Shown here piece by piece: positions 1,632 through 22,453 of a stretch of 22,795 bases of DNA. Position 1 is the first letter of the stretch, and each line of letters opens with the position of its first letter. The notes below the pieces were generated by a model. It did not search any database. It had not been told where the DNA came from and was given only the letters and a program-made list of their open reading frames with translations. This DNA is from a virus, in the IMG/VR virus record IMGVR_UViG_3300020442_001020, positions 1 through 22,795 of that record; one strand, given 5' to 3'. Made by a program: the position numbers and the translations under genes.

Positions 1632-1921
1632 TCCCTCCTTACATCGATCTTCTCATCCTCTACAAAATTTTCACTTCTAGCGATTCTATCGATATCGGGT
1701 TTGAGTTCTAATGCAGATGATACTAAAAGATCAATCTTGATCATATCGTTATTCATCATACGAACTCGACTTTCTAAACTACTAATGATGTTAGTCAAAC
1801 CTGTAACTTGACCAACAACTGATTCCAAGATATATCTCAAAGTCAAGAATATAAAGAATGCCATGATGATAGCACTCCCAATAGGTACTCCGACTTCACT
1901 TAAGAAAGATAATATATCCAT
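1628..1921 (-). CDS. Small membrane protein with one TM helix and a coiled coil; first gene of the csgFG operon
   Basis: The protein has 97 aa: a short N-terminal amphipathic part with SEVGVP, a hydrophobic helix at about residues 13-35, then a coiled-coil region containing VRMMNNDMIKID. It is paralogous to the downstream gene. The ATG (1921-1919) lies 5 nt after a late-promoter-like CATAAATA and has no usable separate leader or Shine-Dalgarno site. If that promoter is used, the mRNA would start at the ATG. The gene opens the four-gene run TM-coil, TM-coil, csgF, csgG, all joined by overlaps. Function unknown. Confidence 0.75.
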   Translation of the reverse strand: MDILSFLSEVGVPIGSAIIMAFFIFLTLRYILESVVGQVTGLTNIISSLESRVRMMNNDMIKIDLLVSSALELKPDIDRIARSENFVEDEKIDVRRD

Positions 1922-1926
1922 ACCCT

Positions 1927-1934
1927 TATTTATG
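1927..1934 (-). promoter_or_regulatory. T4-type late promoter element CATAAATA (csgFG operon)
   Basis: On the minus strand this reads CATAAATA, one mismatch from the T4 late consensus TATAAATA recognised by gp55, which this phage encodes. It lies just downstream of a terminator and 5 nt before the ATG at 1921, so the predicted +1 is the start codon. Confidence 0.6.
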
Positions 1935-1953
1935 AAAAATAGGTCTTATATGG

Positions 1954-1987
1954 CCAAAAAAAAGGGGACATCATGTCCCCCTTTTGG
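1954..1987 (-). terminator. Rho-independent terminator
   Basis: Inverted repeat GGGGACA/TGTCCCC with a 3-nt loop, followed on the minus strand by a run of eight T (plus-strand A-run 1956-1963). Outer CCAAAA/TTTTGG pairing can extend the stem and may make it bidirectional. It ends the transcript of the small membrane genes at 2493-2000 and insulates them from the csgFG operon. Confidence 0.85.
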
Positions 1988-1999
1988 ATTAGTGTGGGT

Positions 2000-2290
2000 T
2001 TATTTTTGTCTTAATTGAGACCAAATTTCACTCACGACTGCAGCCTTTGTTCCACTCTTTTTAACTTTGAGAGATTGTTTCTCAGCAAGATCAAAGAGTT
2101 GAACCTTTGTTAGTTTGTTTAACTCAGCCTTTGACACTACACCGTTATCATTTGCATCTGCTTTTGGAGCAGGTGCTTTAGGTGTAGGTGCTTGTACTGG
2201 AGCAGGTGCTGGAGTTTCAGATTTACTAATCTGATACCACAACCCAAACGCAACAATTGCTACTACAATTCCAATTGCAAAAAGTTCCAT
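2000..2290 (-). CDS. Membrane-anchored small protein with Pro/Ala linker and C-terminal SAP/HeH/Rho-N-like domain
   Basis: The protein has 96 aa. Residues 1-20 form a hydrophobic N-terminal helix (MELFAIGIVVAIVAFGLWYQ). Residues about 25-48 are a Pro/Ala/Lys-rich linker (ETPAPAPVQAPTPKAPAPK). Residues about 52-96 resemble the short helix-extended-helix fold of SAP, LEM or Rho N-terminal domains: SKAELNKLTKVQLFDLAEKQ, then TKAAVVSEIWSQL. Such folds usually bind nucleic acid or protein. A good ribosome site (GAGGAAATATTATG) supports the start. It is the last gene before the terminator at 1954-1987. A membrane-tethered nucleic-acid binder is a reasonable reading but is inferred. Confidence 0.75.
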   Translation of the reverse strand: MELFAIGIVVAIVAFGLWYQISKSETPAPAPVQAPTPKAPAPKADANDNGVVSKAELNKLTKVQLFDLAEKQSLKVKKSGTKAAVVSEIWSQLRQK

Positions 2291-2316
2291 AATATTTCCT
2301 CACTTAATTAAGTTTT

Positions 2317-2493
2317 CTACTTATCCTTTGCTTTCCCAACATTGATAGCAACCCAGTCTAAGACTTTGTAAGCCTTTTTGACTAGACCATCATCAACTGG
2401 TGTTGGTGTTAAAGCTGCAATTAAAGATGCACCCATAACCAGCCAAGGAATCACTTGAATCCATGCTATAACCCATTGTAGGAATTCTAACAT
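2317..2493 (-). CDS. Small membrane protein, 58 aa
   Basis: It starts MLEFLQWVIAWIQVIPWLV and ends with a charged amphipathic tail (KKAYKVLDWVAINVGKAKDK). One hydrophobic Trp-rich helix spans about residues 4-30. The start is well supported by GAAGGAGAATATATG. A late-promoter-like CCTAAATA (2533-2540) lies about 40 bp upstream and would give a leader of roughly 34 nt. The gene lies between regA and the SAP-like membrane protein and ends about 26 nt before the latter. Function unknown; a holin or other envelope-acting peptide is possible but not shown. Confidence 0.7.
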   Translation of the reverse strand: MLEFLQWVIAWIQVIPWLVMGASLIAALTPTPVDDGLVKKAYKVLDWVAINVGKAKDK

Positions 2494-5785: not shown

Positions 5786-7261
5786 TTACCCATTTTGTGC
5801 AATAGGGTTTTTATCAGATTTCTTTTTGTTGTATTCTGCTGTCTCTAACTTTCCGTTTTCAACAACTGTCTTACCACCTTTAGACCTAGGGAATACATGA
5901 TCACCATGAATCTCCCCACCCTTTAACTTACCAGCTGATATTTCAACACCATCTGAAGTTGTAGAATCCTTTACCCACATTTCAGCTTTCTGTTGATCAT
6001 TGAATCCAGCATCTTCGTCAACACTAACAATGATTCCCTTTTCAATAGCTGATGGAATGAACAAGTCTCTAATTTCTTCAGTCCTGATCTTGAATACATT
6101 GTTTGCATTCTTACTAAACAAGTCATTAAAGAAACCTTGCAAAGTGTTCTTAACCTTCTGATAAACTGTTTTCTTATCAGCACACCTTGTTGTCAACCAC
6201 TCGTTGTATGCAGTGATCAATGCATACCTACCTTCTGTATTTACATTTGGTATCTTCAAATTGTTAGCTTGCATGTAAGTCAAGACATAACCAAAATCAT
6301 ACCATGCATTCTTCTTGAAGAGTTGTTCCTTCTTACTCTTCATAATTTTAACGTATGGAACTAATTGTGATTCAAAGAACTTCTCAAAGGTTGGATACTG
6401 ATTATCCAGTTTCGAATTTGACTTGAACTCCTTATCTAATTCTTTCTTACCACCAAGGTACGGAGTCAAACTACCAGCTCTTCCTAGAGTATAAGAGTGA
6501 CCTAACTTTAAAATCCATTCCATAAATCCAAATCTAGCTGCATCCTTTTCTGTCAAGACACCAGCATCAACAAATAAAGATTTGTACTTACTATTCAGAA
6601 CATTCCTAATTCCCATTGCAACTGCAGAAACAGTTGGGTTCCTTAACTCCATTGCATTGAGAGTGACATTTGCATTTAGAATCCTGAAAAAATCTCCTCT
6701 TTCTTCTTGAGATAAATCAGAGTAAACCCATAAATGTACAGGTTGTGACATCAACTTCTTATACAATTCAGGATGATTCTTTTTAACATCCTCAAGGGGC
6801 ATGTCCTTTTCAACTGTAACCATCAACCTATATCCATCCTCATCAGGTTGAAATCTATAATCACCTTTTGAAATCTTTACTTCACCCAGTTCTGTCTTGA
6901 GACCAAAGGCAGCGTCAAAAGTATCACACCTGTTTCCGCCATCCAAGTGAGCATACTTATAACCTTGATCTAAAAATCCCTTGATGAAAGCTGCAAAGAT
7001 CGGGTCTCTATGAGCAACGTCATTCGTCACCATGTCGTATAACTTTTCTAAGTCTACTAAGTGAATTGCAGTCTTACTAACATAACCAACTGCACAATGA
7101 GAGAGGTATCCCTTTCTCCTAGCATAGTCCCAAACACCTTCCCTGTTTACAGATTCATCCCTAACTGTGTAGGGTAGATAATCCTTAACAAAGATTTCCA
7201 ATGGGGGAACAAGGAAGTCAGCTTTGACTTCCCTGAAAATTTTCAAATTATTAATACTCAT
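5786..7261 (-). CDS. DUF262 (ParB/Srx-like) protein with C-terminal HNH nuclease domain
   Basis: The protein has 491 aa from ATG 7261-7259 (an in-frame GTG lies three codons earlier). The N-terminal part fits DUF262: the DGxxR-type motif appears as LDGGNRCDTF at about residues 106-115, followed by VHLWVYSDLSQEERGDFFRI and NPTVSAVAMGIRN. The last 45 residues form an HNH nuclease: GDHVFPRSKGGKTVVEN, then NKKKSDK. DUF262-nuclease fusions include GmrSD- and BrxU-type type IV restriction enzymes that cut modified DNA. Here the gene overlaps the CobS-like ATPase by 11 nt and precedes the replication genes. It could attack host or competing phage DNA, or act in DNA processing. The domain calls are firm; the role is inferred. 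Confidence 0.85.
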   Translation of the reverse strand: MSINNLKIFREVKADFLVPPLEIFVKDYLPYTVRDESVNREGVWDYARRKGYLSHCAVGYVSKTAIHLVDLEKLYDMVTNDVAHRDPIFAAFIKGFLDQGYKYAHLDGGNRCDTFDAAFGLKTELGEVKISKGDYRFQPDEDGYRLMVTVEKDMPLEDVKKNHPELYKKLMSQPVHLWVYSDLSQEERGDFFRILNANVTLNAMELRNPTVSAVAMGIRNVLNSKYKSLFVDAGVLTEKDAARFGFMEWILKLGHSYTLGRAGSLTPYLGGKKELDKEFKSNSKLDNQYPTFEKFFESQLVPYVKIMKSKKEQLFKKNAWYDFGYVLTYMQANNLKIPNVNTEGRYALITAYNEWLTTRCADKKTVYQKVKNTLQGFFNDLFSKNANNVFKIRTEEIRDLFIPSAIEKGIIVSVDEDAGFNDQQKAEMWVKDSTTSDGVEISAGKLKGGEIHGDHVFPRSKGGKTVVENGKLETAEYNKKKSDKNPIAQNG

Positions 7262-8498
7262 CGTTCTCACTTACTCCTTCAGAAGACTCCTCTTCTGATT
7301 CTTCAGCAAGGTGAACACCATCGTCCACCTTGGTGTAGAGATCAAGGATTGAATTCCTAGTCTCTTCATCGAACCTTGAAATACACATTGTGATTGACTT
7401 GAGTTTGTCACCAAACATTCTGTAAGCATTCACGATGTGAACCAACCTTCTAGTAGTGATGACATCATCGATACCACCTTCGTAGAAAGTCTTTCTGATT
7501 ATGTCAGCCCAGTCGACTAACTTGTCACAGAAGTCTTGATCGACATCACCAGTCAATGCCATTTCTTTAGAGAGGATTGACTTCTCAGTCTTCACAGGAG
7601 GGTATTCCTGTTGCATTGTGATTGCAAATCTCTCAAGCATTGCTTCGTTCATGATCTGAGTCCCGATGAACTTACCATCCTCAGAACCTTGACCTTTAGT
7701 GTTTGCAGTGGCAAGGATAGTGAACCCTTCTTTAGGAGTCACCCACTCACCAGTCTTCTTGATCAGGTATCCTTTACCTTCAAGAACTGATTGTAAACAC
7801 ATCAACTTGTTAGAACCCAAGTCAACTTCATCGAGAAGAAGGACAGCACCTTTTCTCATTGCTTTGACAACAGGGCCTTCCCTGAAAATGATGTTACCAT
7901 TCTCTAAAGAATGTCCACCCATCAAATCATCCTCATCAGTTTCGATGGTGATGTTGACCCTGTAGAGTTCCCTCTTCAGTTGGGCACAAACTTGTTCAAC
8001 CATCAAGGTCTTACCATTTCCTGAAAGACCAGTGACAAACACTGGAAAGAAAATCTTAGACTTGATGATGTTCTTCACATCCTTGAAGTGACCAAAAGGA
8101 ACATAGTTCCCCATCTTCTCAGGAATGATCTTCACTTGTTCATCCAAGAGATTGACCGAAGCAGTCGCAGCTGCAACAGGCATATTGGATGGTTTAGAAG
8201 TTGCGGGAACTGGTGCAACTTTCACTGGACTCTCACCCCCGTGGGAATACCCACCGTTGTAACCCGAGATAACCTGTTCAAGGTTGAAGATAACTCCACC
8301 TTCAGGATTGGGTTCTTTGAATGGAAACCTTGAGGATTTAATCCAGTATGGAAGATACCCATCAAGTGCTTCTTTGATCTCTGCCCTAGTGAAGGCAGAC
8401 TGATTAGGATACGATTTAATGAGGGTATCCAACACCTCACCCTTATCAGGAGTAATGGTAAAATCCTTACCATTAACAGAAATAGTCTTCTCAGTCAT
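7251..8498 (-). CDS. cobS: CobS/MoxR-like AAA+ ATPase
   Basis: The protein has 415 aa from ATG 8498-8496, chosen because GGAG lies 7 nt upstream; ATGs at 8528 and 8525 are in frame but sit at the predicted transcription start. Residues about 1-85 form an N-terminal domain (ISVNGKDFTITPDKG). A Gly/Pro/Ala-rich linker follows. The AAA+ core has Walker A GLSGNGKT at about 157-164, DEDDLMGGH, Walker B LLLDEVD at about 220-226 and sensor 1 ILATANT. It resembles the CobS family common in marine T4-like phages. MoxR-type ATPases usually work with a VWA partner, and a CobT-like VWA protein is encoded just upstream (8851-11268). CobS and CobT are cobaltochelatase subunits in bacteria, but no CobN is seen, so cobalamin synthesis is unproven. 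The C-terminus is Glu/Ser-rich. Confidence 0.88.
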   Translation of the reverse strand: MTEKTISVNGKDFTITPDKGEVLDTLIKSYPNQSAFTRAEIKEALDGYLPYWIKSSRFPFKEPNPEGGVIFNLEQVISGYNGGYSHGGESPVKVAPVPATSKPSNMPVAAATASVNLLDEQVKIIPEKMGNYVPFGHFKDVKNIIKSKIFFPVFVTGLSGNGKTLMVEQVCAQLKRELYRVNITIETDEDDLMGGHSLENGNIIFREGPVVKAMRKGAVLLLDEVDLGSNKLMCLQSVLEGKGYLIKKTGEWVTPKEGFTILATANTKGQGSEDGKFIGTQIMNEAMLERFAITMQQEYPPVKTEKSILSKEMALTGDVDQDFCDKLVDWADIIRKTFYEGGIDDVITTRRLVHIVNAYRMFGDKLKSITMCISRFDEETRNSILDLYTKVDDGVHLAEESEEESSEGVSENDEY

Positions 8499-8534
8499 AT
8501 AGTCTCCGTTTTCGTTATTTCTCATCATGTGTAT

Positions 8535-8564
8535 ATTATCTCAAAAAGCTGTAGCCATTGTCAA
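8535..8564 (-). promoter_or_regulatory. Early sigma70-like promoter upstream of the CobS-like gene
   Basis: On the minus strand TTGACA (8564-8559), an 18-bp spacer and GATAAT (8540-8535). The segment 8523-8581 is nearly identical to that in front of the VWA gene (11266-11323). The predicted start falls at about 8528, giving a leader of about 30 nt to the ATG at 8498. Confidence 0.8.
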
Positions 8565-8581: not shown

Positions 8582-8851
8582 TTACTTAAGGGGTTCAAGA
8601 AGTCTCCCCATCTTCTTAAGGCATTTGACCTCACCTTTTGCGTTCTTTTCAGTCAAATACTTCTCTCCATTATTGACCCATGCCCTGAAAGCAAAACATT
8701 CAGTGCTGTTGGTTTTACATTCATCAATCAGTTCACAGTTGTGAAAAGTACAGGGGGCAGGCCCAACGTCATTGATTGCCTCAGCGAACTTGCTGAGATC
8801 ATGAGTCGGAATCCTTTCATAGTAAGCAGGGTCTACTCTTAAATGTGGCAT
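8582..8851 (-). CDS. Small Cys-rich protein, probably metal-binding
   Basis: The protein has 89 aa. Cysteines fall in the pattern CTFHNCELIDEC, then TECFAFRAWV, and one further Cys at about residue 77. Together with His they could bind zinc. Small phage proteins with a C-x4-C-x5-C-x(n)-ECxAFRxW-like pattern are familiar to me, but I cannot name a family. The start overlaps the stop of the VWA gene (TAATG), so it is co-translated with it. A near-duplicate promoter cassette for the CobS-like gene begins right after its stop. It may be an accessory of the VWA/ATPase pair. Confidence 0.75.
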   Translation of the reverse strand: MPHLRVDPAYYERIPTHDLSKFAEAINDVGPAPCTFHNCELIDECKTNSTECFAFRAWVNNGEKYLTEKNAKGEVKCLKKMGRLLEPLK

Positions 8852-11268
8852 TATGCTATCTCCTTTATAAATTCATTGGTTAGGAACCTTGAAGTAGTTT
8901 TACTCTTTTGGTTCTTCTTGAACCTTGCAGTCAAGGTTGATTTCTTTGCACCGATCAAATCATCATCCAAAGTATCATCACCACCAGCTCCAAGGTTTGA
9001 TGCAGCGGTCAAGAAGAGTTTGTTGTAACCCTTAGTCTCGATCACAACACCATTGTTTCTAGCTTCTTTCCACATTGCATTCTGTTTTTCGTAGTTGTAG
9101 TCTTTGTAAGTTTCATGACCAATCACCATAAGAAGATTTGTCATATCAGCTTTCTTACCACAAACAAAGTATCCAGTGACAATGGCACCAGTTGTTTGTC
9201 CAACCCAGTCTAGAAGATTCTGAGTTTGGTCAAAATCATTTCTGTCCCATCTGTCTTTTGCTGATAGGTACTTGTAAACTTTTCCGTTGATCGGGTCAAT
9301 AATGTCTCTCTCTTTTTTGACATCCCAAGACATTCCATCACCCAACTGCTCATCGAAGTCAGCTTTTTCTTTTGCATCTTGATTAAGAATGTTTGCACTG
9401 TGAGAGTACCCATCAGTGATCACTGTTAAGATTGACTTCTCAATCCCATACATTTTGTTGAACTTAGGAAGCAGACCTCTCATTGCAACGATTGTTGCAT
9501 CCAGTGGAGTGCCACCAAGTCTGTATTTGTTATCAGGATAGAAGATTTGAGGAATATCAATCCAGCCACTTTGATCAGGGTCAATCCAATCAACACCTGA
9601 GAACCAGTCATTGTACTTCTCAATCTTTGATTTGAAGTTTCTACCGTATCTCATATCATCAATCATGTATGCATTGTAAAGAGTGCAAACATAACCCATC
9701 ATTTCTTTGTATTCTTTTGCGTTCATTTCGTTAGAGAATAACTCAACGAGATACCCACATCTGTTTCTCCAGTATTCTACCTCTTCATTACCTTCAGGTT
9801 TTGCTTTTGAAATGTTGTCTGAGAACAAGTAAACTCTGTGAGGAATTGAAACCTTCTTACAAAACATTGTGAGAATGATTGCTTGTTCTAGGATATCAGC
9901 AACTTCATTGCAGATCGAACCACTCCAGTCGATCATGATGTTGACACCATGATTCTTACCATCAGGAAGATAGGTAACTCTTTTGAAAACATCATCCACG
10001 ATCTGATACTTTGCAAGTCTGTTCATATCTAACTTACCAGTCTTACCAGTGAATGCATGTCTTGAATTCAAAGCAGTCTGTCTCATTTCAAATTCTTTTG
10101 CCATGTGAGCAACGATTGCTTTGTTCTTTGCTTCTAACTTCTTGTAAGTGTGAAGTGATTTTGCAAAGTTCTGATCTTTGTATTGAGAGTAGTAAGATTG
10201 GTTTATTGAAGAATTAGGATTGACGTAGTAGTCTCTCCAATCTTCAAGAACCAACTTGTAATCATAAAGAGTATCTTCGACATACTTACCGAAGTCTTTA
10301 CTCTTTAGATCGATTTGAGTTCTGATCATGTTAGTATCAGAAAGGAATTGCTCTTCGTTGTTGTGAGCGTTGTGTTCTGTTAGTGACTCCCTTGCACCAT
10401 CTTCATCATCGTATTGATCAGGAGTAGAACCTTCTTGGATAGAACCTGAACCACCAGTTTCTTTTCTACCTTCTTCTTCAGACTCTTCCTCTTCTTCAGA
10501 ATCATCATCTTCAGTTTCTTGATCACCATCACCAGTGTTAGGTGCTTCAGGAAGATTGTCTTCCTCAGCTTCTTCATCTGAATCTTCAAAAGAATCATCC
10601 CAAGATTCATTCTCTTCTTGATCTTCTTCTTGATCTTCATCTTCTTCATCGTCACCGATGTCGAACATTTGAGGAACTAACTGCTCGTCAGTCTCATCCC
10701 TAGTTTCATTTTCTTTTGACCATTCATAGATTGCAGTAGCACATTCCTCAACCTCTTCCCAAGTCTCACACTTCATTGACCAATCAAGGAAGAACTGCTC
10801 TTCTTTAGAAAGTTTGATGTTGATTCTAGAACCACATTTAGTGATCAAGTTGATTTTGTCAATCAAAGAAAGACCTTGTAGGTCTCTACCTTTGACTCCA
10901 AAGAAATCCATTTCCATCAATTCATTGTATGCAGTGAAGAAAGACTTCCTCAATCCAGCATACTTGTTTCTGATGTTTCTCTCAATCCTGACATCCTCAA
11001 CAACATTGAGATATCCTTTGAGAGTTTTGTTCTTAGTAACTGCAGAATGAACACCTTCAAATGGAGTCCACAATGCATGACCAACCTCATGACCCATAAA
11101 CAAGTCATAAAGTTCAGGTGATATATCGTCTTTGAAAATAGGGCAACACAGTAACCTATTCTTAAGATCGAAGTATGCAGTAGGAGTTTTCCTATGCACA
11201 ACTGTCAAATTTTCCCCTGCCATCAGTTTTGCAAGGTTGTCTTTTTGGGTCTTTAGTTTCTCAGTCAT
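8851..11268 (-). CDS. CobT-like VWA protein with N-terminal HEXXH metallopeptidase-like motif
   Basis: The protein has 805 aa. The N-terminal region carries GHEVGHALW (HEVGH at residues 60-64) followed by NVVEDVRIER at about 88-97, a gluzincin-like arrangement in which one Glu could be the third metal ligand. Residues about 205-290 are a very acidic low-complexity tract, as in CobT. The C-terminal half is a von Willebrand A domain with MIDAS residues: DWSGS at about 447-451, GGTPLD, and TDGYS. VWA proteins of this kind partner with MoxR/CobS ATPases, and such a gene lies next on the strand. The ATG is 6 nt after a -10 element, so the mRNA may be leaderless; no other Met occurs before residue 16. 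The role may be a chelatase-like, chaperone or protease complex; which is open. Confidence 0.88.
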   Translation of the reverse strand: MTEKLKTQKDNLAKLMAGENLTVVHRKTPTAYFDLKNRLLCCPIFKDDISPELYDLFMGHEVGHALWTPFEGVHSAVTKNKTLKGYLNVVEDVRIERNIRNKYAGLRKSFFTAYNELMEMDFFGVKGRDLQGLSLIDKINLITKCGSRINIKLSKEEQFFLDWSMKCETWEEVEECATAIYEWSKENETRDETDEQLVPQMFDIGDDEEDEDQEEDQEENESWDDSFEDSDEEAEEDNLPEAPNTGDGDQETEDDDSEEEEESEEEGRKETGGSGSIQEGSTPDQYDDEDGARESLTEHNAHNNEEQFLSDTNMIRTQIDLKSKDFGKYVEDTLYDYKLVLEDWRDYYVNPNSSINQSYYSQYKDQNFAKSLHTYKKLEAKNKAIVAHMAKEFEMRQTALNSRHAFTGKTGKLDMNRLAKYQIVDDVFKRVTYLPDGKNHGVNIMIDWSGSICNEVADILEQAIILTMFCKKVSIPHRVYLFSDNISKAKPEGNEEVEYWRNRCGYLVELFSNEMNAKEYKEMMGYVCTLYNAYMIDDMRYGRNFKSKIEKYNDWFSGVDWIDPDQSGWIDIPQIFYPDNKYRLGGTPLDATIVAMRGLLPKFNKMYGIEKSILTVITDGYSHSANILNQDAKEKADFDEQLGDGMSWDVKKERDIIDPINGKVYKYLSAKDRWDRNDFDQTQNLLDWVGQTTGAIVTGYFVCGKKADMTNLLMVIGHETYKDYNYEKQNAMWKEARNNGVVIETKGYNKLFLTAASNLGAGGDDTLDDDLIGAKKSTLTARFKKNQKSKTTSRFLTNEFIKEIA

Positions 11269-11274: not shown

Positions 11275-11304
11275 ATTATCTCAAAAAGCCGTAGGCATTG
11301 TCAA
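11275..11304 (-). promoter_or_regulatory. Early sigma70-like promoter upstream of the VWA gene
   Basis: TTGACA, 18-bp spacer, GATAAT at 11280-11275 on the minus strand, then six nucleotides (ATAAAC) and the ATG. The 41 bp through the ATG differ from the CobS-side copy at only three positions, and similarity continues upstream to the end of the preceding gene. Confidence 0.8.
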
Positions 11305-11323: not shown

Positions 11324-11521
11324 TTATATGCAGTAAGAATCGAATCTTAGTTTGATCAGGGTATCAATGTGATCATCATCGTCCTTGGAATAGACTACTT
11401 TGTCTGCCCCAAAATCGGTGGTAATTGCATCGATAACACCCCAAACACCCTTATCATCGTACAATGCACATACATCGTCACTGATATTGTCTATAATTTG
11501 GTTGTTAATTGAATTACTCAT
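11324..11521 (-). CDS. Small acidic hypothetical protein, 65 aa
   Basis: A soluble, Asp-rich protein (VYSKDDDDHIDTLIKLRF) with no recognised motif. The only Met is the first residue, so the start is fixed if the gene is real. The ATG follows a -10-like TAGCAT by 6 nt, the same layout as for the VWA gene and gp55. Being first and smallest in the early region, it could be a host-takeover protein, but nothing in the sequence shows that. Confidence 0.6.
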   Translation of the reverse strand: MSNSINNQIIDNISDDVCALYDDKGVWGVIDAITTDFGADKVVYSKDDDDHIDTLIKLRFDSYCI

Positions 11522-11527: not shown

Positions 11528-11557
11528 ATGCTATCAGAAAGCGGTATGCATTGTCAA
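11528..11557 (-). promoter_or_regulatory. Early sigma70-like promoter upstream of the 65-aa gene
   Basis: TTGACA (11557-11552), 18-bp spacer, TAGCAT (11533-11528). It shares GCCTTGACAATG and GCTTT-CTGA with the other two early promoters, but its -10 is weaker. It directly follows the tRNA gene. Confidence 0.65.
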
Positions 11558-12431: not shown

Positions 12432-12933
12432 ATTCTATTCTCTTCTTTCTTTCTTTTGGTCTTGCTTTTATAGCTCTCTCTAATTTTAATTTAGATGCTC
12501 TTTGAAGAAAGATAATTCCGTTCAGGTGATCTAGTTCATGTTGAACACATCTTGCACCTAAACCTTCAAGTTGTAATCTTTGTTTCTCACCTTCTGCATC
12601 CGTGTACTCTAACTCGATTGCTTTAGGTCTCTTTATCATTAAGTATATATCGGGGAAAGAAAGGCACCCTTCTTTCTGTAGTTCAGTCTCTTGGGACATC
12701 ATGGTGATTTCAGGATTAAAGAATGCTTTGATACCACTGTCTGCAGTTCTCATTACAAACACACGATACTTCAATCCTAATTGATTTGCAGATAAACCAA
12801 TACCACCAAATCGTTCCATTGCTTCTGCAAGGTTCTTTTCTATTTCTTTGGGGTCTTCAGGTGGATTATCAAAATCAAAATCATCAGTGGGTTCGCGTAG
12901 AACCTTCATTGCTTCTTCAACTAATTCATACAT
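12328..12933 (-). CDS. def: Peptide deformylase
   Basis: This 201-aa protein carries all three deformylase motifs: GIGLSANQ (residues 44-51), EGCLS (88-92) and QHELDHLNG with HELDH at 132-136. The Cys and two His bind the metal and the Glu is catalytic. The enzyme removes the N-formyl group from new proteins; phage copies are known from marine myoviruses. After about residue 150 comes a Lys/Arg-rich helix and then a low-complexity tail (SQSQSDSDTDGDGDE type). The last 34 codons overlap the 2OG oxygenase gene. The catalytic domain is complete without the tail. Confidence 0.95.
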   Translation of the reverse strand: MYELVEEAMKVLREPTDDFDFDNPPEDPKEIEKNLAEAMERFGGIGLSANQLGLKYRVFVMRTADSGIKAFFNPEITMMSQETELQKEGCLSFPDIYLMIKRPKAIELEYTDAEGEKQRLQLEGLGARCVQHELDHLNGIIFLQRASKLKLERAIKARPKERKKRIEYERRMEIARQLQSLQSQSDSDTDGDGDERPNQVA

Positions 12934-12934
12934 A

Positions 12935-14410
12935 TTATAAACTTATATCGACTGGAACTCCTCTCACATTACTAATCTCGACATTGAAGAAAGCCATGAC
13001 TGCTTCAAACATTCTTTTACCCATGTTTGCAATTCTCTTTAATACTTTCTTTACATTGTCCATTACTTTCTTGATTACCTTTTGAAACTTGTTCCAAGTT
13101 TTTGAACCAATTTCTTTTGCCCAGTTCCCAGCACGTTTGATAATATCAAATGCACCTTCTTCTAGAACTTCTTCAGTTAGTAACAGATCGAAACCATCCA
13201 TGGTGGTGAGTTCGTTAACGACCATGGTTTTAAAATCATCAATACCATAATGTTCTTTCAATCCTATTCTCATAGTAGAATATGCTGGTGAATTACCACC
13301 ACCTTTCTTAAATGCAATGTAAGGATTGATCTGACTTGCATACTTCTTGATGATCTTATCATTGATTGAGGTGATTGGTTCTACCTCAACTTTTTTTGTA
13401 TTAATATCAAACTTACCTAGTAGGTTTGCAGCTGCAGGGCCTTCGTTAAATTTAACATTACCCGTTGATGCTTCTAACACTACGTTCAGTGAGAATAGTT
13501 GATTGACTTCTGTATCGTTGTTTAAATAAGACATCAAGATTTCTGACAATTCTCTGTTGTCTTTATCTTTTTGTTGGAAATCTATGATGTCCTCACCCGT
13601 CTCCCCAGCTGCTGTCCTTTTGTTTAGTGATGTAACAGTCTCAGTTGTGATAAGACTATTCATCTTCTCTTCCATTTTTTCTACCAAACCTTTTGCAAAG
13701 TTTTTGTTCTCACCCATTTTTGAAAGTGCAGCTCTGACTGTTGCAATAGACTCACCCTTTGCACCTGACATAAGTTGTGAACCACCTGCTTTCTTGAGTG
13801 ATATTTTTTCTTTGAATCCTGAACCAGCAATATCTGTCTTAGGTGTAGGATTACTTGCACCGCTGTCTTTGTAGATTTTGGAAATGGTATTTGGTATCCC
13901 ACCTTTACCTGTGGATACTAATTCTTTCTCTTTTAGTTTCTTATTGAATCCAACTGCAATCTCTTTTGCAATGTCTAGGTATAGTGGAAATGACTCTGCA
14001 GTTCTTATTACGTCTGCATCTGTTTTTTTGTTGTTGAGTTTATTGTACTCGTAGATGATAAGTTCTTCCCACTGTGCGCCACTTGGTGTATCTCCACCTT
14101 CTTTTACATGATTGAAGTATGCAGACTTATAACCAGCACCACCTTTTATATGAAAAGTCTTCTTACCACTCTGTAGATATTTCTCAAACTGTCCGTCTTC
14201 TGTTCCTAAAAAAGCAGTTACTCTCTTAGTAGGTTTCACTGCAATGAAGACATCACCATGTTTAAAACCTTCTGCATCGAACTCTTTGATACCACCTTTG
14301 TACATAAACTTATGTCCGATAACATAATCGGGTTTAAGAATAGATGCTTCAACCAAAGGCTTCTTTGGTACTATTATGGTTTTATCTGTGAATTGTGAGA
14401 AAGATTTCAT
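12935..14410 (-). CDS. Putative head-internal or structural protein with capsid-targeting-like N-terminus
   Basis: This 491-aa protein has no recognised enzymatic domain. It begins MKSFSQF, similar to the capsid-targeting start of T4 internal proteins (MKTYQEF/MKTFKEF type). KPLVEA at about residue 21 fits the T4 prohead protease rule (L/I-x-E then A/G), and VLEEGA near residue 420 fits as well. The middle has Gly/Lys-rich and helical stretches; the C-terminus (about 425-480) is a Lys-rich amphipathic region (KKVMDNVKKVLKRIANMGKR). An exact TATAAATA late promoter lies 5 nt before the ATG, in keeping with a virion protein. The structural role is inferred from these signals. Confidence 0.7.
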   Translation of the reverse strand: MKSFSQFTDKTIIVPKKPLVEASILKPDYVIGHKFMYKGGIKEFDAEGFKHGDVFIAVKPTKRVTAFLGTEDGQFEKYLQSGKKTFHIKGGAGYKSAYFNHVKEGGDTPSGAQWEELIIYEYNKLNNKKTDADVIRTAESFPLYLDIAKEIAVGFNKKLKEKELVSTGKGGIPNTISKIYKDSGASNPTPKTDIAGSGFKEKISLKKAGGSQLMSGAKGESIATVRAALSKMGENKNFAKGLVEKMEEKMNSLITTETVTSLNKRTAAGETGEDIIDFQQKDKDNRELSEILMSYLNNDTEVNQLFSLNVVLEASTGNVKFNEGPAAANLLGKFDINTKKVEVEPITSINDKIIKKYASQINPYIAFKKGGGNSPAYSTMRIGLKEHYGIDDFKTMVVNELTTMDGFDLLLTEEVLEEGAFDIIKRAGNWAKEIGSKTWNKFQKVIKKVMDNVKKVLKRIANMGKRMFEAVMAFFNVEISNVRGVPVDISL

Positions 14411-14415: not shown

Positions 14416-14423
14416 TATTTATA
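14416..14423 (-). promoter_or_regulatory. T4 late promoter TATAAATA
   Basis: Exact match on the minus strand, in the 13-nt gap between gene 46 and the 491-aa gene. Five nucleotides separate it from the ATG, so the expected +1 is the A of the start codon. Confidence 0.75.
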
Positions 14424-16139
14424 TTATTCTGCTATCCTTGAGAAGTTTTTATACTTTTCAAACCTCGTTACATTCTCAAATTTGTCGTATAGAATATCAC
14501 CTTTGTGAGAAATGATAAATGCATTTGTCTTCTCAGTAAGAGTGTTTAGCATCTTCATGAATTCATCTGTACCATTTGCATCGAGTGAACTATCAAACAC
14601 TTCGTCTAATACCAATAGATTAGTGTTCACTGAGTTCTTCATTCTTGCAACTGCTCTCCATGTAAAGAGAAGTGCCAAGTCGATTCTCATCTTTTCACCC
14701 TGTGAGAAGTTTTCATATTTGAATACGTCTCTGAACCTAGACTTGATTGTTTCTTCGAAACTCTCATCTAATTCAAAACCAACATAGAACTCTAACTGTG
14801 CTAGATACTTGTTGATCAATTTGTTCATGATGGGTACATATTGTTTGATGATCTTTTCCTTGACACCCTGATCTCTAAGTAAGAGAGTTGCAATCTCTAA
14901 GTAGTGACCATTGTCAGCAAGATGCTGTTTCCTCTTCAATAGTGTATGGAGATCATCCTCACACTTTTCTACTTGGGTATGTGCATCTGTATTACCTTGT
15001 TGCTCTTCTTCAAGAGCTGCAATCTCTTTCTGCAGTTTACCAATGTATTTTTGATTAGAAACTATTTCCGTTTGTGCTAATCCAATCTCTCGTTGGATGT
15101 CGTCAATATCGGATTGAACACCTCTGATTCTTTCGATCTCGGTGTGGAGGTCTGCAATTTGGGATTCAAGAGTTGACAACGCCTCCTTGATTTCATTGAC
15201 CTTTGCAGATTTTTCCTGAATGTGTTTCTCTTTGTGTTCATGATCTAAACCCTGTTTACATGTGGGACAATTGTCATTGTTCTCATAGAACTCAATGTCT
15301 TCAATTGCTTTTTTTCTAGCTCTTTCGAGTTGAGTCTCCAAGTCATTTGTTTGTTTGAGTCTATCTTCCGTAGAATCTTTGTTCTCGATAAGTCGTGTTT
15401 TCTCCACCACATTTTGCGTCTTTTCATCAACCTCTCCTAATAGTTTGTCGATATTGGTTTGAGTTTGACTAATGGTAGCCTCGAATTTCAAGATTTTTTC
15501 ATCACGATTTTCACGGAGTGCATTTAGTTGACTATTTAATCCACTAATCCTTTCTTCAAGAATTGCAATCTCATGTTGATTCTCCTTCACTTCTAATACA
15601 TGATTAGACTTTCGTTTCCTCAACAACTGCATCATAGTTGTAAAAATAGTAATATCCAAAAGGTCTTCAACTAGCTTCCTTCTGTCCTTTGCTCTAAGTT
15701 GCATGAACGGAGTGAAGTTTGCTGACCCTAGGATTGCCACCTGAGTGAATGAACGATAACTCATTTTGAGTATGTTATTCTCTAGGTGTTCTTGATAATC
15801 CCTGACACTTGCATCCTGATTCAATAAGATATCGTTACCCCATATCTCAAAGATGTTAGGTTTTGCGCCACGGATTATTTTGTAGTCTTTAGACCCGATT
15901 GAAAAATCAAGTTCAACTACAAGTTCTTTTTGATTGATTGAATTTACAAGTAAGTCTTTTTTCAGATTACGGAACCCACGACCATACAGTGCATAACATA
16001 ATGCATCTAATAGAGTCGATTTACCAGCACCGTTCTCACCTAGTATAAGAGTTGTCTGATGGGTATTAAGTGGTATCTTTGTAAACTTGTTACCCGATGA
16101 TAGTAAATTTTTATATCTTACTTCTTTAAATATAATCAT
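14424..16139 (-). CDS. 46: gp46 recombination nuclease subunit (SbcC/Rad50-like)
   Basis: This 571-aa protein is close to T4 gp46 (560 aa). The ABC-type head has Walker A GENGAGKST at residues 34-42. A long coiled coil (about 165-440) carries the zinc hook CPTC near residue 291. The C-terminal head has the signature FSQGEKMR at about 477 and Walker B NLLVLDEVFD at about 510. With gp47 it resects DNA ends for recombination-dependent replication and helps degrade host DNA. It overlaps gene 47 by 4 nt (ATGA). All key motifs are intact. Confidence 0.97.
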   Translation of the reverse strand: MIIFKEVRYKNLLSSGNKFTKIPLNTHQTTLILGENGAGKSTLLDALCYALYGRGFRNLKKDLLVNSINQKELVVELDFSIGSKDYKIIRGAKPNIFEIWGNDILLNQDASVRDYQEHLENNILKMSYRSFTQVAILGSANFTPFMQLRAKDRRKLVEDLLDITIFTTMMQLLRKRKSNHVLEVKENQHEIAILEERISGLNSQLNALRENRDEKILKFEATISQTQTNIDKLLGEVDEKTQNVVEKTRLIENKDSTEDRLKQTNDLETQLERARKKAIEDIEFYENNDNCPTCKQGLDHEHKEKHIQEKSAKVNEIKEALSTLESQIADLHTEIERIRGVQSDIDDIQREIGLAQTEIVSNQKYIGKLQKEIAALEEEQQGNTDAHTQVEKCEDDLHTLLKRKQHLADNGHYLEIATLLLRDQGVKEKIIKQYVPIMNKLINKYLAQLEFYVGFELDESFEETIKSRFRDVFKYENFSQGEKMRIDLALLFTWRAVARMKNSVNTNLLVLDEVFDSSLDANGTDEFMKMLNTLTEKTNAFIISHKGDILYDKFENVTRFEKYKNFSRIAE

Positions 16140-17203
16140 AGATAGGTGTGTTCATCCAGTGCTTCATTATACAATGAAGTCATCAATTCTGTAAGAGGCT
16201 TTTTCTTTCCTTGGATGTCCATACTCTCGACATACTTGTTTAGTATAGTCAAGGTGTCTTCTACATTCTCTACATCTGCATCATCCATCAAGTCCATATG
16301 TTTATGGTCATCTACTACATTTAAGTGTAGAGGTGAAGCTGCGTGTAGTTTATCTAAGAATGCATCAAACCAATATGGGTTGTCTTTATTGACAACTATC
16401 ACTTTGGTGAATTTTCCTGTTACGTTTGAATAGTCTTTGTTGACGATCTTTTCAAATGTTTCTTTAGTGTCATCATAAAATACTTTTTCAAAAATTGTAA
16501 GTGGATTTAACACAGGCAATACTTCTCTTGTCTCTGTATCAAAGATGTGGAAGTATTTTGGGTCATCATAATCTGACCATGTGAACTGCATTTGTGAACC
16601 AAGATATCTGATGTTTGCAAACTCTGACTTCTGATGGAAGTGACCACTGTATACTTTCTCAAATCTCTTTACATAAGAATGATCAAGTCCATGTTGACAC
16701 GTCATGCCTGGGTGCATCAAAGCACCTTCAAACTCAAAGTGTCCCATACAGATAGGTGCATCACATGTCATTAGAAACTCAACTTGATCTGCATAGTTAT
16801 CACTATTAATCCATGGACTAAATGCTATATTCAATCCATCAAATTCTTTGACTACGGGTTCAGTGTGTACAGTAATACTCTCATCACCAAACAATAATAG
16901 TTCAGGTGCATTTACATCATTCGTATTCTTATAATAAGTATCATGATTACCAATAATCAAATCCATGGTAATACCAGCATCCAACATAGGTTGGATAAAG
17001 TGTTCACGGTTTGCTTTAAGGGATGAGAAGTTTACATATTTTCTGCGATCAAAGTAATCACCTAGGTGGATGATATGTTTGATATCATTCTCTTCCAAAT
17101 ATGGAAAGAATACTTCATTATAAAAACGTCCTTGGTAATCGGCCATTGCAACCATATCACCTCGGACTCCCGCATGGGTGTCATTCAATAGTGCTATCTT
17201 CAT
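16136..17203 (-). CDS. 47: gp47 recombination nuclease (SbcD/Mre11-like)
   Basis: This 355-aa calcineurin-like phosphoesterase has DTHAG at 8-12, HLGDYFDRR at 47-54, GNHDTYY at 85-91, and SGHFHQKS with metal-binding His at about 188 and 190. These are the Mre11 metal ligands. It forms the nuclease with gp46 and is translated in step with it and with gp55 (4-nt overlaps on both sides). Length agrees with T4 gp47 (339 aa). Confidence 0.97.
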   Translation of the reverse strand: MKIALLNDTHAGVRGDMVAMADYQGRFYNEVFFPYLEENDIKHIIHLGDYFDRRKYVNFSSLKANREHFIQPMLDAGITMDLIIGNHDTYYKNTNDVNAPELLLFGDESITVHTEPVVKEFDGLNIAFSPWINSDNYADQVEFLMTCDAPICMGHFEFEGALMHPGMTCQHGLDHSYVKRFEKVYSGHFHQKSEFANIRYLGSQMQFTWSDYDDPKYFHIFDTETREVLPVLNPLTIFEKVFYDDTKETFEKIVNKDYSNVTGKFTKVIVVNKDNPYWFDAFLDKLHAASPLHLNVVDDHKHMDLMDDADVENVEDTLTILNKYVESMDIQGKKKPLTELMTSLYNEALDEHTYL

Positions 17204-17757
17204 TCAGTAAATTTATCTAGACTGTTCTCTTTAACTTTCTTGGTTCGTTTTGATTTTCGTGGTTCGTATTCAACCCTATTCATATTCTCTTGCATCCACT
17301 CTATATTAGTGTTGGTAAGAGTAGGGTCATGTTCCCCATCAATAGTTGTGTATGCATCCATAGTAATGTTACTTTCCTCGATGGACTTCTGCTTGATGAA
17401 TACTTGCTTCTTCTCCTTTTGTATCCTTCGTAGGAATGCGTAGTAACAAATTTGAGTTACATATGCAAATGCATTGTTTGACTTTTCAGTATTGAAGTTA
17501 CCGATGTATTGGATACAGTTTTCAATTGCATCACAAATCATTTCGTCTCGGTATGTGTAGTTGATAAAATTAGGTCTAGTCGATAAACGAGTAGCAATTT
17601 TATAGATACATTCACCAATGTATTCTGTCATTCTTGGGGGGACTTCCCCGTTGGATTCTGCAAGTTTAACTGATGCGTTATACTCGGAGACTGCTAGTGT
17701 GAACTCTTTGTTGTTAACATAGTGTTCAGCCTGTTTTGGGTCTTTTTTAGTAGTCAT
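17200..17757 (-). CDS. 55: gp55 late-transcription sigma factor
   Basis: The protein has 185 aa, the same length as T4 gp55. Matches include YVNNKEFTLAV (T4 YVNNKELLQAI), RPNFINYTYRDEMICDAIENC, NFNTEKSNNAFAYVTQICYYAFLRRI, then KKEK-type basic residues. gp55 directs host RNA polymerase to TATAAATA late promoters, together with gp33 and the gp45 clamp in T4. The ATG is fixed, since the next Met is at residue 43. It lies 6 nt after a perfect TATAAT -10 box, which suggests a leaderless mRNA. It is the first gene of the 55-47-46 operon. Confidence 0.95.
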   Translation of the reverse strand: MTTKKDPKQAEHYVNNKEFTLAVSEYNASVKLAESNGEVPPRMTEYIGECIYKIATRLSTRPNFINYTYRDEMICDAIENCIQYIGNFNTEKSNNAFAYVTQICYYAFLRRIQKEKKQVFIKQKSIEESNITMDAYTTIDGEHDPTLTNTNIEWMQENMNRVEYEPRKSKRTKKVKENSLDKFTE

Positions 17758-17763: not shown

Positions 17764-17791
17764 ATTATACTAGAAAATCTCCGTATTGTAA
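17764..17791 (-). promoter_or_regulatory. Sigma70-like promoter of gp55
   Basis: TTACAA (17791-17786), 16-bp spacer, perfect TATAAT (17769-17764), then AGACAC and the ATG. The spacer is shorter than in the other early promoters, but the position of the -10 relative to the ATG is the same. Confidence 0.75.
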
Positions 17792-17827
17792 GGGGGTTTC
17801 TAGTATTTATTTAATTTGAATTTTTCA

Positions 17828-20554: not shown

Positions 20555-21210
20555 ACTACCAAGGATTTTCTAACCCCTCTCGTCACAGGTGTGACCTGAT
20601 GATGCAACCATGATGGGAATACAATTAGAGAACCTATCTCTTTTGCACTCATGGGTGCAGTGTGAATGATATCATCTGTATAGATAGTTTTTTGTTCCTG
20701 ACGTAATCTGTCGAAAGTACCAGCACTCTCAATCCATTGAAAGTGACCACCCTCATAATCTTCAGGAATAGATAATTGAACAGAGCAAGATATCTTTCTT
20801 ATTTGTCCACTTGGATAAGGGTCAACTCCAGCATCAGTATGCCAAGTATAGAAGTCACCCTTCTTTCTATTAGGTTGTGCTTCATATACTGTGTATTGCC
20901 AATGTTCCATATCTGCAATATCATAGTTCCAACCTGATGTCTGATTTGCTTGAACCATTCCATCAAATATTTTTTGTTTAATTTTCTGATCAAAGTTTAG
21001 ATCATTGTGATCAATCCATTTATTTGTAGACTGTCTGATTGCATGATCTTCACCACCACTTTCTTCATAAGAGTCTGCATCCTTTGTGGCTGCTCCACCA
21101 CCGACTCTAGAATTCATAGTATCTATTTGTTGTGCATAACCATGAATGTAACTTACCTCTTCCACGGAAAGAAAGTTTGGTAATATACAAGTATAGTTTT
21201 TATAGATCAT
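20527..21210 (-). CDS. PKHD-type 2OG-Fe(II) oxygenase
   Basis: The protein has 227 aa. The core has YTWHTDAGVDPYPSG (HxD), KISCSVQLS, YEGGHFQW, GSLIVFPSWLHHQVTPVTRG (distal His) and VRKSLVVWNTGWP. This is the PiuC/PKHD-type hydroxylase pattern, common in marine T4-like phages. Substrate unknown. Its ATG overlaps the uvsY stop (TAATG), so it is co-translated with recombination genes. Confidence 0.92.
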   Translation of the reverse strand: MIYKNYTCILPNFLSVEEVSYIHGYAQQIDTMNSRVGGGAATKDADSYEESGGEDHAIRQSTNKWIDHNDLNFDQKIKQKIFDGMVQANQTSGWNYDIADMEHWQYTVYEAQPNRKKGDFYTWHTDAGVDPYPSGQIRKISCSVQLSIPEDYEGGHFQWIESAGTFDRLRQEQKTIYTDDIIHTAPMSAKEIGSLIVFPSWLHHQVTPVTRGVRKSLVVWNTGWPLR

Positions 21211-21653
21211 TATGAACCCGCCATAAATTTACGCCACTCGATAGTGTTCTTAATGGTCTGATGTCTCCATGTAATGTTTTCCATGCATCGTTTTAGAAAA
21301 TCAATAGTTGCTTGTTGGTACTCAGTTTGGGCATTCAACTTCTGTAAGTCTGCATCTGAGTTGAAGAATATCTGCATGTCATTCTTCATGATTTTAAGAC
21401 CATCAAAAGGGTCATCATCCCATCCAAGTTCTTTGATTCTTCCTTCATCCATTTTACCATTGAACCATAACCACTTATCTCTGAGCATGGTTTGATATCT
21501 AAGTTGCAAGGATTTATGCTTGACAATTGCATCTGTCAAGAGTTCGGAGTATTTTGCGTGGAGTTTAGGAACCTCTAAAGATGAAACATCTAGTTCGATA
21601 TCATCTATTTCACAATCCTTCTTCCACTCTATTTTCAAGTCATCTAGAGTCAT
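21210..21653 (-). CDS. uvsY: UvsY recombination mediator
   Basis: This 147-aa helical protein is similar to T4 UvsY (137 aa): the start MTLDDLKIEWKKDCEIDDIE parallels MRLEDLQEELKKDVFID, and the C-terminal helices match in layout (LDFCSG-like FLKRCMENI, then IRDMREF-like EWRKFMAGS). UvsY loads the UvsX recombinase onto gp32-coated ssDNA. Its place just before uvsW (one gene between) supports the call. Upstream is CATAAATA (21671-21678). Confidence 0.88.
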   Translation of the reverse strand: MTLDDLKIEWKKDCEIDDIELDVSSLEVPKLHAKYSELLTDAIVKHKSLQLRYQTMLRDKWLWFNGKMDEGRIKELGWDDDPFDGLKIMKNDMQIFFNSDADLQKLNAQTEYQQATIDFLKRCMENITWRHQTIKNTIEWRKFMAGS

Positions 21654-21670
21654 AATGTACCATTATACCA

Positions 21671-21678
21671 TATTTATG
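21671..21678 (-). promoter_or_regulatory. Late-promoter-like CATAAATA upstream of uvsY
   Basis: It lies in the short gap before uvsY, inside the near-palindrome ACCATAAATATGGT, with 17 nt to the ATG. A TATAAT also occurs between it and the ATG. Either could give uvsY its own transcript. Confidence 0.45.
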
Positions 21679-21683
21679 GTATA

Positions 21684-22229
21684 TTAGGAAGTGGTTTTTA
21701 TTTCGTAGTATGTGAACCTGAATTCTACTGTTGCTATGACGGTCTCTCCGTCTGCACCTGATTCCATCTCAATCCCACTTAAAGAGATAGGGAATGCATC
21801 ATGGAACCTGAAGAATCGATTTGGTAGATTTTTATTAGTGTTTGTAACCAGTGTAATATCTGAGTATTGATTCAAAGCATCATCGATCTTTGACTGTTGA
21901 CCTGTTGCAACTGTTTCAGACTTTACATAGTTCTTGTATGCACTTGGGTCTGATACTGGAACGATAGAATCCATCCAGTCAAATATTTCTTTGAAGTTTG
22001 CAAGGTCTTCATCAACCAAGAAACCTACACTCAAAGTATCAAACGAAACTTTATCGCCTGGGAAAAATGCATCTAGACCTATACCAGCAGGTGCAACTGT
22101 TTCTGTAAACTGCAAGCCTGGGATGTTAACATTCTTTACAAAGAATTCAACACTTGGTACTTTATCAATAAGAAGTCTAAAATTATTCTTACCTAAAAGG
22201 GATTTGTTTATGTTTATATTATCAGCCAT
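21684..22229 (-). CDS. Tail-tube-family protein (T4 gp19-like; possibly the gp3-type tail terminator)
   Basis: The protein has 181 aa. It shows the gp19-superfamily pattern common in marine myoviruses: NNFRLLIDKVPSVEFFVKNV, NIPGL, FPGDKVSFDTLSVGFLVDED, LANFKEIFDWMDSI, and a C-terminal strand VIATVEFRFTYYEI. Such proteins stack in the tail tube or cap it. In marine T4-like genomes a tail-completion gene (gene 3) commonly lies next to uvsY, so gp3 is an alternative label. It overlaps the previous gene by 8 nt. Confidence 0.8.
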   Translation of the reverse strand: MADNININKSLLGKNNFRLLIDKVPSVEFFVKNVNIPGLQFTETVAPAGIGLDAFFPGDKVSFDTLSVGFLVDEDLANFKEIFDWMDSIVPVSDPSAYKNYVKSETVATGQQSKIDDALNQYSDITLVTNTNKNLPNRFFRFHDAFPISLSGIEMESGADGETVIATVEFRFTYYEIKTTS

Positions 22230-22440
22230 TTACTTTGATTATCCTAGAGGACTTTGTGGTGTCATGATAGTCACCGTCCCTGTATTCTCGGGTAACTATG
22301 GACTCGCACAAATAACCATCTTGGATATACCTAGTAACAATCTGACGTGATAATACATCCTTGGTTTCTACTCCGTTAGGGAATGCATGTCTTTCAAATG
22401 GGCCTTCGCTCATAGTAATTGTTTTATCGTACTTGTCCAT
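22222..22440 (-). CDS. Small conserved-looking hypothetical protein, 72 aa
   Basis: Soluble, with GPFERHAFPNGVETKDVLSR and a C-terminal TREYRDGDYHDTTKSSRII segment. It has no known motif. The ATG at 22440 follows CATAAATA by 5 nt; Met10 is an alternative start but has no ribosome site. It lies directly before the tail-tube gene, so a late/virion role is plausible. Confidence 0.65.
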   Translation of the reverse strand: MDKYDKTITMSEGPFERHAFPNGVETKDVLSRQIVTRYIQDGYLCESIVTREYRDGDYHDTTKSSRIIKVNG

Positions 22441-22445
22441 AGTTA

Positions 22446-22453
22446 TATTTATG
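22446..22453 (-). promoter_or_regulatory. Late promoter element CATAAATA
   Basis: Fills the gap between the two 72-aa genes, 5 nt before the ATG at 22440; same spacing as at 1927-1934 and 14416-14423. Confidence 0.6.

Follow-up and report, generated by a model that had tools for sequence, protein, structure and literature searches.

Start-codon-fused early and late promoters predict leaderless mRNAs in a T4-like phage and its marine relatives

The DNA analyzed here is IMG/VR virus record IMGVR_UViG_3300020442_001020, a stretch of 22,795 bases from a T4-like phage (hereafter, the window), in which promoters of an early, host type and of a late, phage type stand at a fixed short distance before the ATG of several genes. 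From the geometry of these sites, their conservation, and the coding character of the sequence from codon 2 onward, we consider it highly probable that start-codon-fused promoters of both classes yield leaderless mRNAs. Six such arrangements, all on the minus strand, had been put forward in an original prediction, and their hexamers and spacings were read back as described: TATAAT, GATAAT, or TAGCAT followed by 6 nucleotides (nt) and the ATG at 17757, 11268, and 11521, respectively, in the early type, and CATAAATA, TATAAATA, or CATAAATA followed by 5 nt and the ATG at 1921, 14410, and 22440, respectively, in the late type. The leaderless interpretation offered with them was likewise supported, as four of the six genes keep the distance across relatives while the sequence drifts, and the spacing known from phage T4 would set the transcription start (+1) on the A of the ATG. 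The sites and their genes, sized in amino acids (aa), are as follows.

17764..17792, minus strand: early promoter of gp55, sigma70-type, CTTACA (17792-17787), 17 nt, TATAAT (17769-17764), 6 nt to the ATG
17200..17757, minus strand: gp55 late sigma factor gene, ATG 17757 (phrog_234, E 5e-58), predicted leaderless
11275..11304, minus strand: sigma70-type promoter TTGACA-18-GATAAT, TG before the -10 box, 6 nt to ATG 11268
8851..11268, minus strand: 805-aa gene ("VWA"; phrog_459, "peptidase"), predicted leaderless
11528..11557, minus strand: sigma70-type promoter TTGACA-18-TAGCAT, 6 nt to ATG 11521, a near-copy of the promoter at 11304
11324..11521, minus strand: 65-aa gene, predicted leaderless in the window phage
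1927..1934, minus strand: late promoter CATAAATA, 5 nt to ATG 1921
1956..1980, minus strand: terminator-like hairpin (GGGGACA, TGA loop, TGTCCCC, then a T run; by eye), adjoining the 1921 promoter upstream
1628..1921, minus strand: 97-aa gene of unknown function (phrog_18771), late mRNA predicted to be leaderless
14416..14423, minus strand: late promoter TATAAATA, 5 nt to ATG 14410, placed directly against the stop codon of the gene upstream (14424-16139)
12935..14410, minus strand: 491-aa gene, predicted leaderless late mRNA
22446..22453, minus strand: late promoter CATAAATA, 5 nt to ATG 22440, likewise directly against the stop codon of the gene upstream (22454-22672)
22222..22440, minus strand: 72-aa gene, predicted leaderless late mRNA in the window phage, leadered in most relatives

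The 491-aa and 72-aa genes had no match in PHROG or Pfam, and the VWA label of the 805-aa gene, which was the original prediction's own, found no match in Pfam; we keep it here as a name only. When the positions -18 to -4 relative to the ATG were scored for a Shine-Dalgarno (SD)-like string, none was found at any of the six genes; at ATG 1921, an AAGGG is separated from the ATG by 1 nt, which is too close for a standard SD site. SD sites are present before other genes of the window, for example at 22672, 8851, and 2493, and leadered late candidates occur in relatives, in agreement with the earlier suggestion that two translation modes exist side by side. The translations also bore out that gp55 and the 65-aa gene have no nearby alternative start, since gp55 lacks a further Met ahead of residue 43 and the 65-aa protein contains no other Met. 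Upstream on the same strand, the closest open reading frame (ORF) stops about 245 nt short of gp55 and 55 nt short of the 805-aa gene. NATAAATA occurs six times in the window, all six on the coding (minus) strand and none on the plus strand, and three of these copies have an ATG exactly 5 nt downstream; the remaining three lie 17 nt ahead of UvsY, within a gene, and 46 nt ahead of gp55. The sigma70-type pairs at 8564, 11304, 11557, and 17792 match 10-11 of 12 consensus positions with hexamers 16-18 nt apart. Since sigma70-like pairs taken alone are no more frequent than in shuffled sequences (42 versus 47.8), the sigma70 half of the claim rests on position and conservation.

A seventh arrangement, TTGACA-18-GATAAT-6-ATG at 8564-8526, had been missed and precedes the gene of an AAA ATPase. 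This gene is not a clean case, because an inner ATG at 8498 is led by an SD site and may serve as its start. Four further features bear on the comparison.

8535..8564, minus strand: further copy of the 11304-type promoter, TTGACA-18-GATAAT, 6 nt to ATG 8528
7251..8528, minus strand: AAA ATPase gene, 5'-terminal ATG 8528 plus the inner ATG 8498 with SD
21671..21678, minus strand: late-type CATAAATA, 17 nt ahead of the UvsY start at 21653, a short-leader contrast with no SD
17804..17811, minus strand: AATAAATA, 46 nt ahead of gp55

We set aside AATAAATA before gp55 as a late promoter, and it is probably not a working one; the same 8-mer stands at 5 nt in only 3 of 80 cases, and the late promoter of these phages appears to disfavor A before the core. 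The sigma70 cassettes at 8526-8564, 11266-11304, and 11519-11557 are nearly identical, each with TTGACAATG, an 18-nt spacer, and TG before the -10 box, and they look as if they were copies of one promoter placed before three genes. Two of them lead straight to an ATG and one to a 5'-terminal ATG plus an SD site.

For comparison with relatives, we assembled 14 related viral contigs (1.2 Mb; hereafter, the clade) from those matched by gp55 and the 805-aa gene. They were picked mostly by length from the contigs behind 160 loci, with the remaining long contigs left out, and the choice was made after the upstream regions of gp55 and the 805-aa gene had been viewed. Counts of motif distances and of protein families required the ATG to open at least 40 codons, ORFs of fewer than 30 codons were dropped from the listing of late-promoter targets, and ORFs of fewer than 60 codons and repeated upstreams were removed for base composition around late sites. 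In the family upstream alignments and codon-position counts, tblastn matches beginning after query residue 15 were dropped. Motifs split by the ends of 20-kb stretches were lost from the counts. Among deposited phages, the gp55 of the window matched first that of the Pelagibacter phage Mosig, followed by S-SSM7 and Melnitz (54-57% identity, 82-87% coverage), and some cyanophage gp55 proteins were 60% identical across a shorter part.

The late arrangement formed a sharp spike in the clade. An ORF-opening ATG was located exactly 5 nt downstream of 83 of the 438 ATAAATA motifs, as compared with 1 at 4 nt, 3 at 6 nt, and a mean of 4.6 at other distances (Poisson 3.7e-72, a value that overstates independence because the contigs are related). 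The first position of the motif tolerated C, as 32 of 255 CTAAATA motifs had an ATG at 5 nt, together with 5 of 228 for GTAAATA and 0 of 288 for TTAAATA, and each of the 18 single substitutions at one of the six remaining positions gave 0-4; among ATAAATA and its 21 one-base variants, the signal was confined to ATAAATA, CTAAATA, and, weakly, GTAAATA. Tolerance of C for the first A has also been reported for phage Aeh1. Seven permuted or related 7-mers gave 0-4 at 5 nt, and the whole late pattern occurred 84 times versus 5 for a reversed control. When each protein family was counted once, with the window included, 39 families were found at 5 nt, and every other distance between 0 and 60 nt had 0-14. 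Those at 5 nt include the families of the portal, baseplate wedge, DNA end protector, and NifU-like proteins and the 97-, 491-, and 72-aa genes of the window. The portal gene and the 97-aa gene each kept the 5-nt form in 13 of 14 sources; the corresponding counts were 11/13 for the 86-aa gene, 7/8 for both the 278-aa and the 110-aa genes, 5/5 for the wedge gene, and 3/3 aligned sources for the 491-aa gene.

In the early class, TTGACA/TATAAT-like pairs in the 14 contigs had 69 ATGs at 6 nt versus an average of about 22 elsewhere, the next highest values being 38 at 7 nt and at 31 nt, with an excess that is small per single genome; for TATAAT alone, counted over a pool of 11 of the 14 contigs, there were 38 ATGs at 6 nt and a mean of about 6 elsewhere. 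We did not use these loose counts alone, because the scan picks internal coding ATGs and also places families at other distances, such as 12 nt (12 and 9 contigs). The strong evidence for the predicted early class is orthology rather than motif counts. TTGACA lies exactly 30 nt before the ATG of the VWA gene in 53 of 80 loci, representing 29 different upstream sequences, and the base before the ATG is a pyrimidine in 29 of 30 different upstreams. The -10 box of gp55 is at exactly 6 nt in 13 of the 14 related contigs (14 of 15 sources). In a gp55 tree of 88 rows, the box was at 6 nt in 41 rows by script, to which L013 and L016 add TATAGT at 6 nt by eye, and all 43 rows sit in one group of 52 (support 99/48, weak by the Shimodaira-Hasegawa-like approximate likelihood ratio test, SH-aLRT). 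The group does not include T4, three cyanophages, HTVC008M, Mosig, or Melnitz; by eye, gp55 is leadered with SD-like runs in HTVC008M, Syn9, and T4, and its -10 box is at 9 nt in Mosig. The 6-nt early arrangement was also found before the DNA polymerase gene in all 9 contigs where the start was located and before UvsY in 4 contigs.

The position of +1 was then considered. One report (PMC1524935) locates the T4 late core TATAAATA between -13 and -6 relative to the transcription start, so that by analogy a distance of 5 nt to the ATG would put +1 on its A; the early +1 on the ATG is likewise a predicted start, taken from standard sigma70 spacing at 6 nt. In late promoters with an ATG 15-60 nt away, the presumed +1 was a purine in 83% of 162 sites in the clade, 87% of 58 in the three isolates HTVC008M, Mosig, and Melnitz, 84% of 43 in cyanophages, and 71% of 24 in T4, which is a moderate mark, because in the clade neighboring AT-rich positions are only somewhat less purine-rich. 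The base before the ATG at 94 leaderless late sites was T in 90% and C in 6%. GGAG, GAGG, or AGGA occurred in 87/162, 39/58, 16/24, and 9/43 of the leadered late candidates of the clade, the isolates, T4, and the cyanophages, respectively, suggesting that leaderless and leadered modes coexist.

Several indirect data indicate that the ATGs concerned are real starts. Substitutions in codons 2-11, counted by codon position, were 88/34/273 for the portal gene, 26/8/169 for DNA polymerase, 16/12/106 for the 110-aa gene, 37/67/145 for gp55, 47/28/112 for the 97-aa gene, 59/24/104 for the 278-aa gene, 85/23/110 for the 86-aa gene, and 6/8/15 for the wedge gene, a codon-position bias that is present from codon 2 onward in the majority of the families tested. 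The ATG at 5 nt opens at least 40 codons at 83 of 84 ATAAATA sites and 32 of 36 CTAAATA sites of the clade. In the isolates, 19 of 21 late 5-nt ATGs are annotated starts of coding sequences (HTVC008M 9/9, Mosig 7/8, Melnitz 3/4), the two others being Mosig 73459 and Melnitz 129255.

Some observations weigh against the leaderless interpretation. The presumed +1 of leadered late promoters stands out little in its purine content, as the clade bases two to four after it hold 70-77% purine. The 805-aa family has a weak bias in codons 2-11 (84/111/127), and its TTGACA-to-ATG distance is 52 nt in 18 of the 80 loci and takes other values in 7, with 2 unscorable. In the 52-row gp55 group, the other nine rows have the -10 box at 9 nt (eight rows) or 7 nt (L020). 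In 3 of 3 relatives, a leader with an SD site precedes the 65-aa gene, and the relatives of the AAA gene are mostly SD-led. Just 4 of 12 sources have the 5-nt form at the aligned start of the 72-aa gene; one further source has it at an upstream ATG in the same frame, and the rest carry leaders, several of them including GGAG. Melnitz is near noise (3 sites, P 0.018). Read-through leadered mRNAs may also exist, because 70 of 123 leaderless late sites lie at most 20 nt from an upstream stop. The expectation that relatives would keep the promoter-to-ATG distance therefore held for gp55, VWA, and the 97-aa and 491-aa genes, was mixed for the 72-aa gene, and failed for the 65-aa gene. Some relatives do have SD sites and other distances, part of what the original prediction had named as counting against it, yet the VWA distances are two-valued, with 30 or 52 nt in 71 of the 80 loci. 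Conservation thus backs the predicted leaderless state of the gp55, 805-aa, 97-aa, and 491-aa genes, and the 72-aa and 65-aa genes rest mainly on the sequence of the window phage.

We weighed four other explanations of the fixed distances. Transcription might begin 1-5 nt off the A and leave very short leaders, served by 70S scanning or by non-SD binding of 30S subunits. The start-site choice of polymerases often wobbles by one or two bases, and such leaders would fit the gp55 boxes at 9 nt in eight rows and in Mosig and the early cases at 7 nt; a tolerant mechanism, however, would not keep exactly 5 nt across 39 families, and we regard this explanation as unlikely. Genome compaction could also have brought promoters and starts together, the genes being translated by coupling from read-through mRNAs and leaderlessness having no function. 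By a crude ORF-based measure, the median gap to the upstream stop is 17 nt at the 123 leaderless late sites and 50 nt at leadered ones, and two of the three late promoters of the window abut an upstream stop codon. Compaction may indeed have favored the fused form, given these shorter gaps. It predicts a spread of short distances, however, and the near emptiness of the 4- and 6-nt classes argues that the exact placement is itself selected. Nor is read-through general, because 24 of the 123 gaps exceed 60 nt and 11 of the 14 members of the 97-aa family show, by eye, a terminator-like T run at the hairpin position ahead of the promoter; with a hairpin and T run ahead of its promoter, the 97-aa mRNA should not come from read-through. 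The distances of the nearest upstream ORFs from gp55 and the VWA gene point the same way, and compaction as the whole explanation seems to us improbable.

The ATG might instead be part of the promoter as an initiator element, with the real starts downstream under SD sites of their own. The two unannotated isolate sites, the AAA gene with its inner ATG, and the clade sites that do not open 40 codons (1/84 for ATAAATA and 4/36 for CTAAATA) would agree with this; in leadered late promoters, however, the third base from the presumed +1 is G in only 17%, showing no preference for ATG there, and the long frames and the coding bias from codon 2 led us to reject an initiator role and downstream starts as very improbable. 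Chance in an AT-rich genome, where promoters are AT-rich, short gaps are common, and sigma70-like pairs are as frequent in shuffles, was already refuted by the motif controls and the family count and retains a negligible probability: the signal was not reproduced when the motif was permuted, reversed, or changed by one base, and orthologous upstreams retain the distance after drifting.

Under the leaderless interpretation, host RNA polymerase with the main sigma factor would start early transcripts on the A of the ATG of gp55 and VWA and, in relatives, of DNA polymerase. Host polymerase with phage gp55 would then start late transcripts on the A of the ATG of the 97-aa and 491-aa genes and, in the window phage, the 72-aa gene; in relatives, gp55-driven leaderless late genes would include those of the portal, the baseplate wedge, and the DNA end protector. 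As 70S ribosomes are reported to bind leaderless mRNAs at an AUG located at the very 5' end (PMC9031893), a 70S ribosome with initiator tRNA may bind the AUG directly, and the remaining genes of the same phage would retain leaders and SD sites. A likely benefit is that about 13 base pairs (bp) would suffice for the start of a late gene, with output set by the promoter alone.

The distribution of the late form was uneven among known phages. Late 5-nt sites by pattern numbered 9 in HTVC008M, 8 in Mosig, and 4 in Melnitz, of which 9, 7, and 3 had an open frame. T4 had no ATAAATA site with an open frame at 5 nt and 2 by pattern alone, neither opening 40 codons; its variant TTAAATA had 3 at 5 nt versus 0.5 (P 0.017 before correction, one of 24 tests). 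No spike was seen in the cyanophages Syn9, S-PM2, and P-HM1 (3 for the three genomes together, as compared with a mean of 1.5), and no excess over the reversed control in S-SSM7 (1 versus 1) or P-SSM2 (3 versus 3). By pattern alone, RB49 had 2 late 5-nt sites and KVP40 none. As judged from these genomes, the predicted late form is a mark of the sampled marine T4-like phages outside the cyanophages, and the gp55 form of the window's own group.

The late promoters of T4 resemble those described here in core motif, late sigma class (phrog_234), and expected placement of +1. They differ in that T4 has 24 leadered late candidates with the ATG 17-55 nt downstream, 16 of them with an SD site, whereas the clade of the window has many late genes with the ATG at the presumed +1 and also uses CTAAATA. 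HTVC008M and Mosig, which infect Pelagibacter, and Melnitz, which infects OM43, share late promoters fused to the ATG at 5 nt; they differ in gp55, for which HTVC008M and Melnitz have a leader and Mosig a -10 box at 9 nt, and the portal gene is leadered in Mosig and Melnitz. Syn9, S-PM2, and P-HM1 share gp55, NATAAATA late promoters, and an often purine presumed +1, but not the spike. Bacterial leaderless genes of the TA-led kind, as one report describes them (PMC3160421), are similar in that the -10 box lies about 12 bp upstream of the start codon, an SD site is lacking, and the AUG is 5'-terminal. The precedents discussed in PMC9031893, bacterial leaderless mRNAs and lambda cI, concern genes of hosts or one phage gene encoding a repressor; in contrast, the predicted cases here span early and late classes and core replication and virion genes of a T4-like phage. 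Phage transcripts are often leaderless, according to a remark in one paper (PMC5312081). In the parts consulted, the Melnitz paper counts 31 predicted early promoters and 15 predicted late ones, does not report promoter-ATG geometry, and has the word "leaderless" only in the title of a reference, and a pelagimyophage survey reports promoters, but not the fused geometry, and an unsuccessful late-promoter prediction (PMC7029224). Among the open-licence PubMed Central titles and abstract openings listed for leaderless mRNA in cyanophages, T4-like phages, pelagiphages, or SAR11, we did not find the fused arrangement described, which is a weak form of absence. An idea that the survey missed late promoters because they overlap upstream genes was dropped; the window sites abut upstream stops.

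If the leaderless interpretation is correct, a marine phage group decouples much of its gene expression from SD recognition, and a 13-bp unit, made of the 8-bp late core and 5 nt, would be promoter and translation start at once. The sites also show that Pelagibacter T4-like phages have late promoters, for which the survey had reported an unsuccessful prediction. Gene-finding programs would gain a rule for placing starts in these genomes, and the natural leaderless and leadered versions of one gene (gp55, VWA, portal, 72-aa) could be used for studying leaderless translation. A broader proposal, that the clade runs much of its early-to-late program leaderless (late sigma, DNA polymerase, portal) and retunes ribosomes toward the 5' AUG, is speculative and rather doubtful at present; the candidates for such tuning would be phage ribosomal protein S21, encoded in 2 of the 14 contigs (many of which are fragments) and in the three isolates, and peptide deformylase. 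A peptide deformylase gene is located at 12328-12933 of the window (PF01327), and in contig G002 a gene with a deformylase-like N-terminus, by eye, has a late promoter at 5 nt (late015).

The S21 of a relative had suggested Sphingobacteriales as a host; this was rejected, as it came from a single match in a contig of a metagenome-assembled genome, L278, that proved phage-derived. L278 (JAAXIF010000105.1), filed under a Sphingobacteriales genome, is a related T4-like phage with 44 tblastn matches along 16.7 kb and was probably misbinned. In several contigs, a stretch like ATGATGAGAAA (8496-8528 and AAA relatives) is found again close to where the AAA transcript would begin; by eye, in contigs G002 and G003 this stretch would start a short frame upstream that overlaps the SD-led AAA start. 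A tRNA gene at 11570-11643 on the same strand ends 12 bases ahead of the -35 box of the 65-aa gene. The gene at 1329-1631, next to the 97-aa gene, also belongs to phrog_18771 and is likely a paralogue of 1628-1921.

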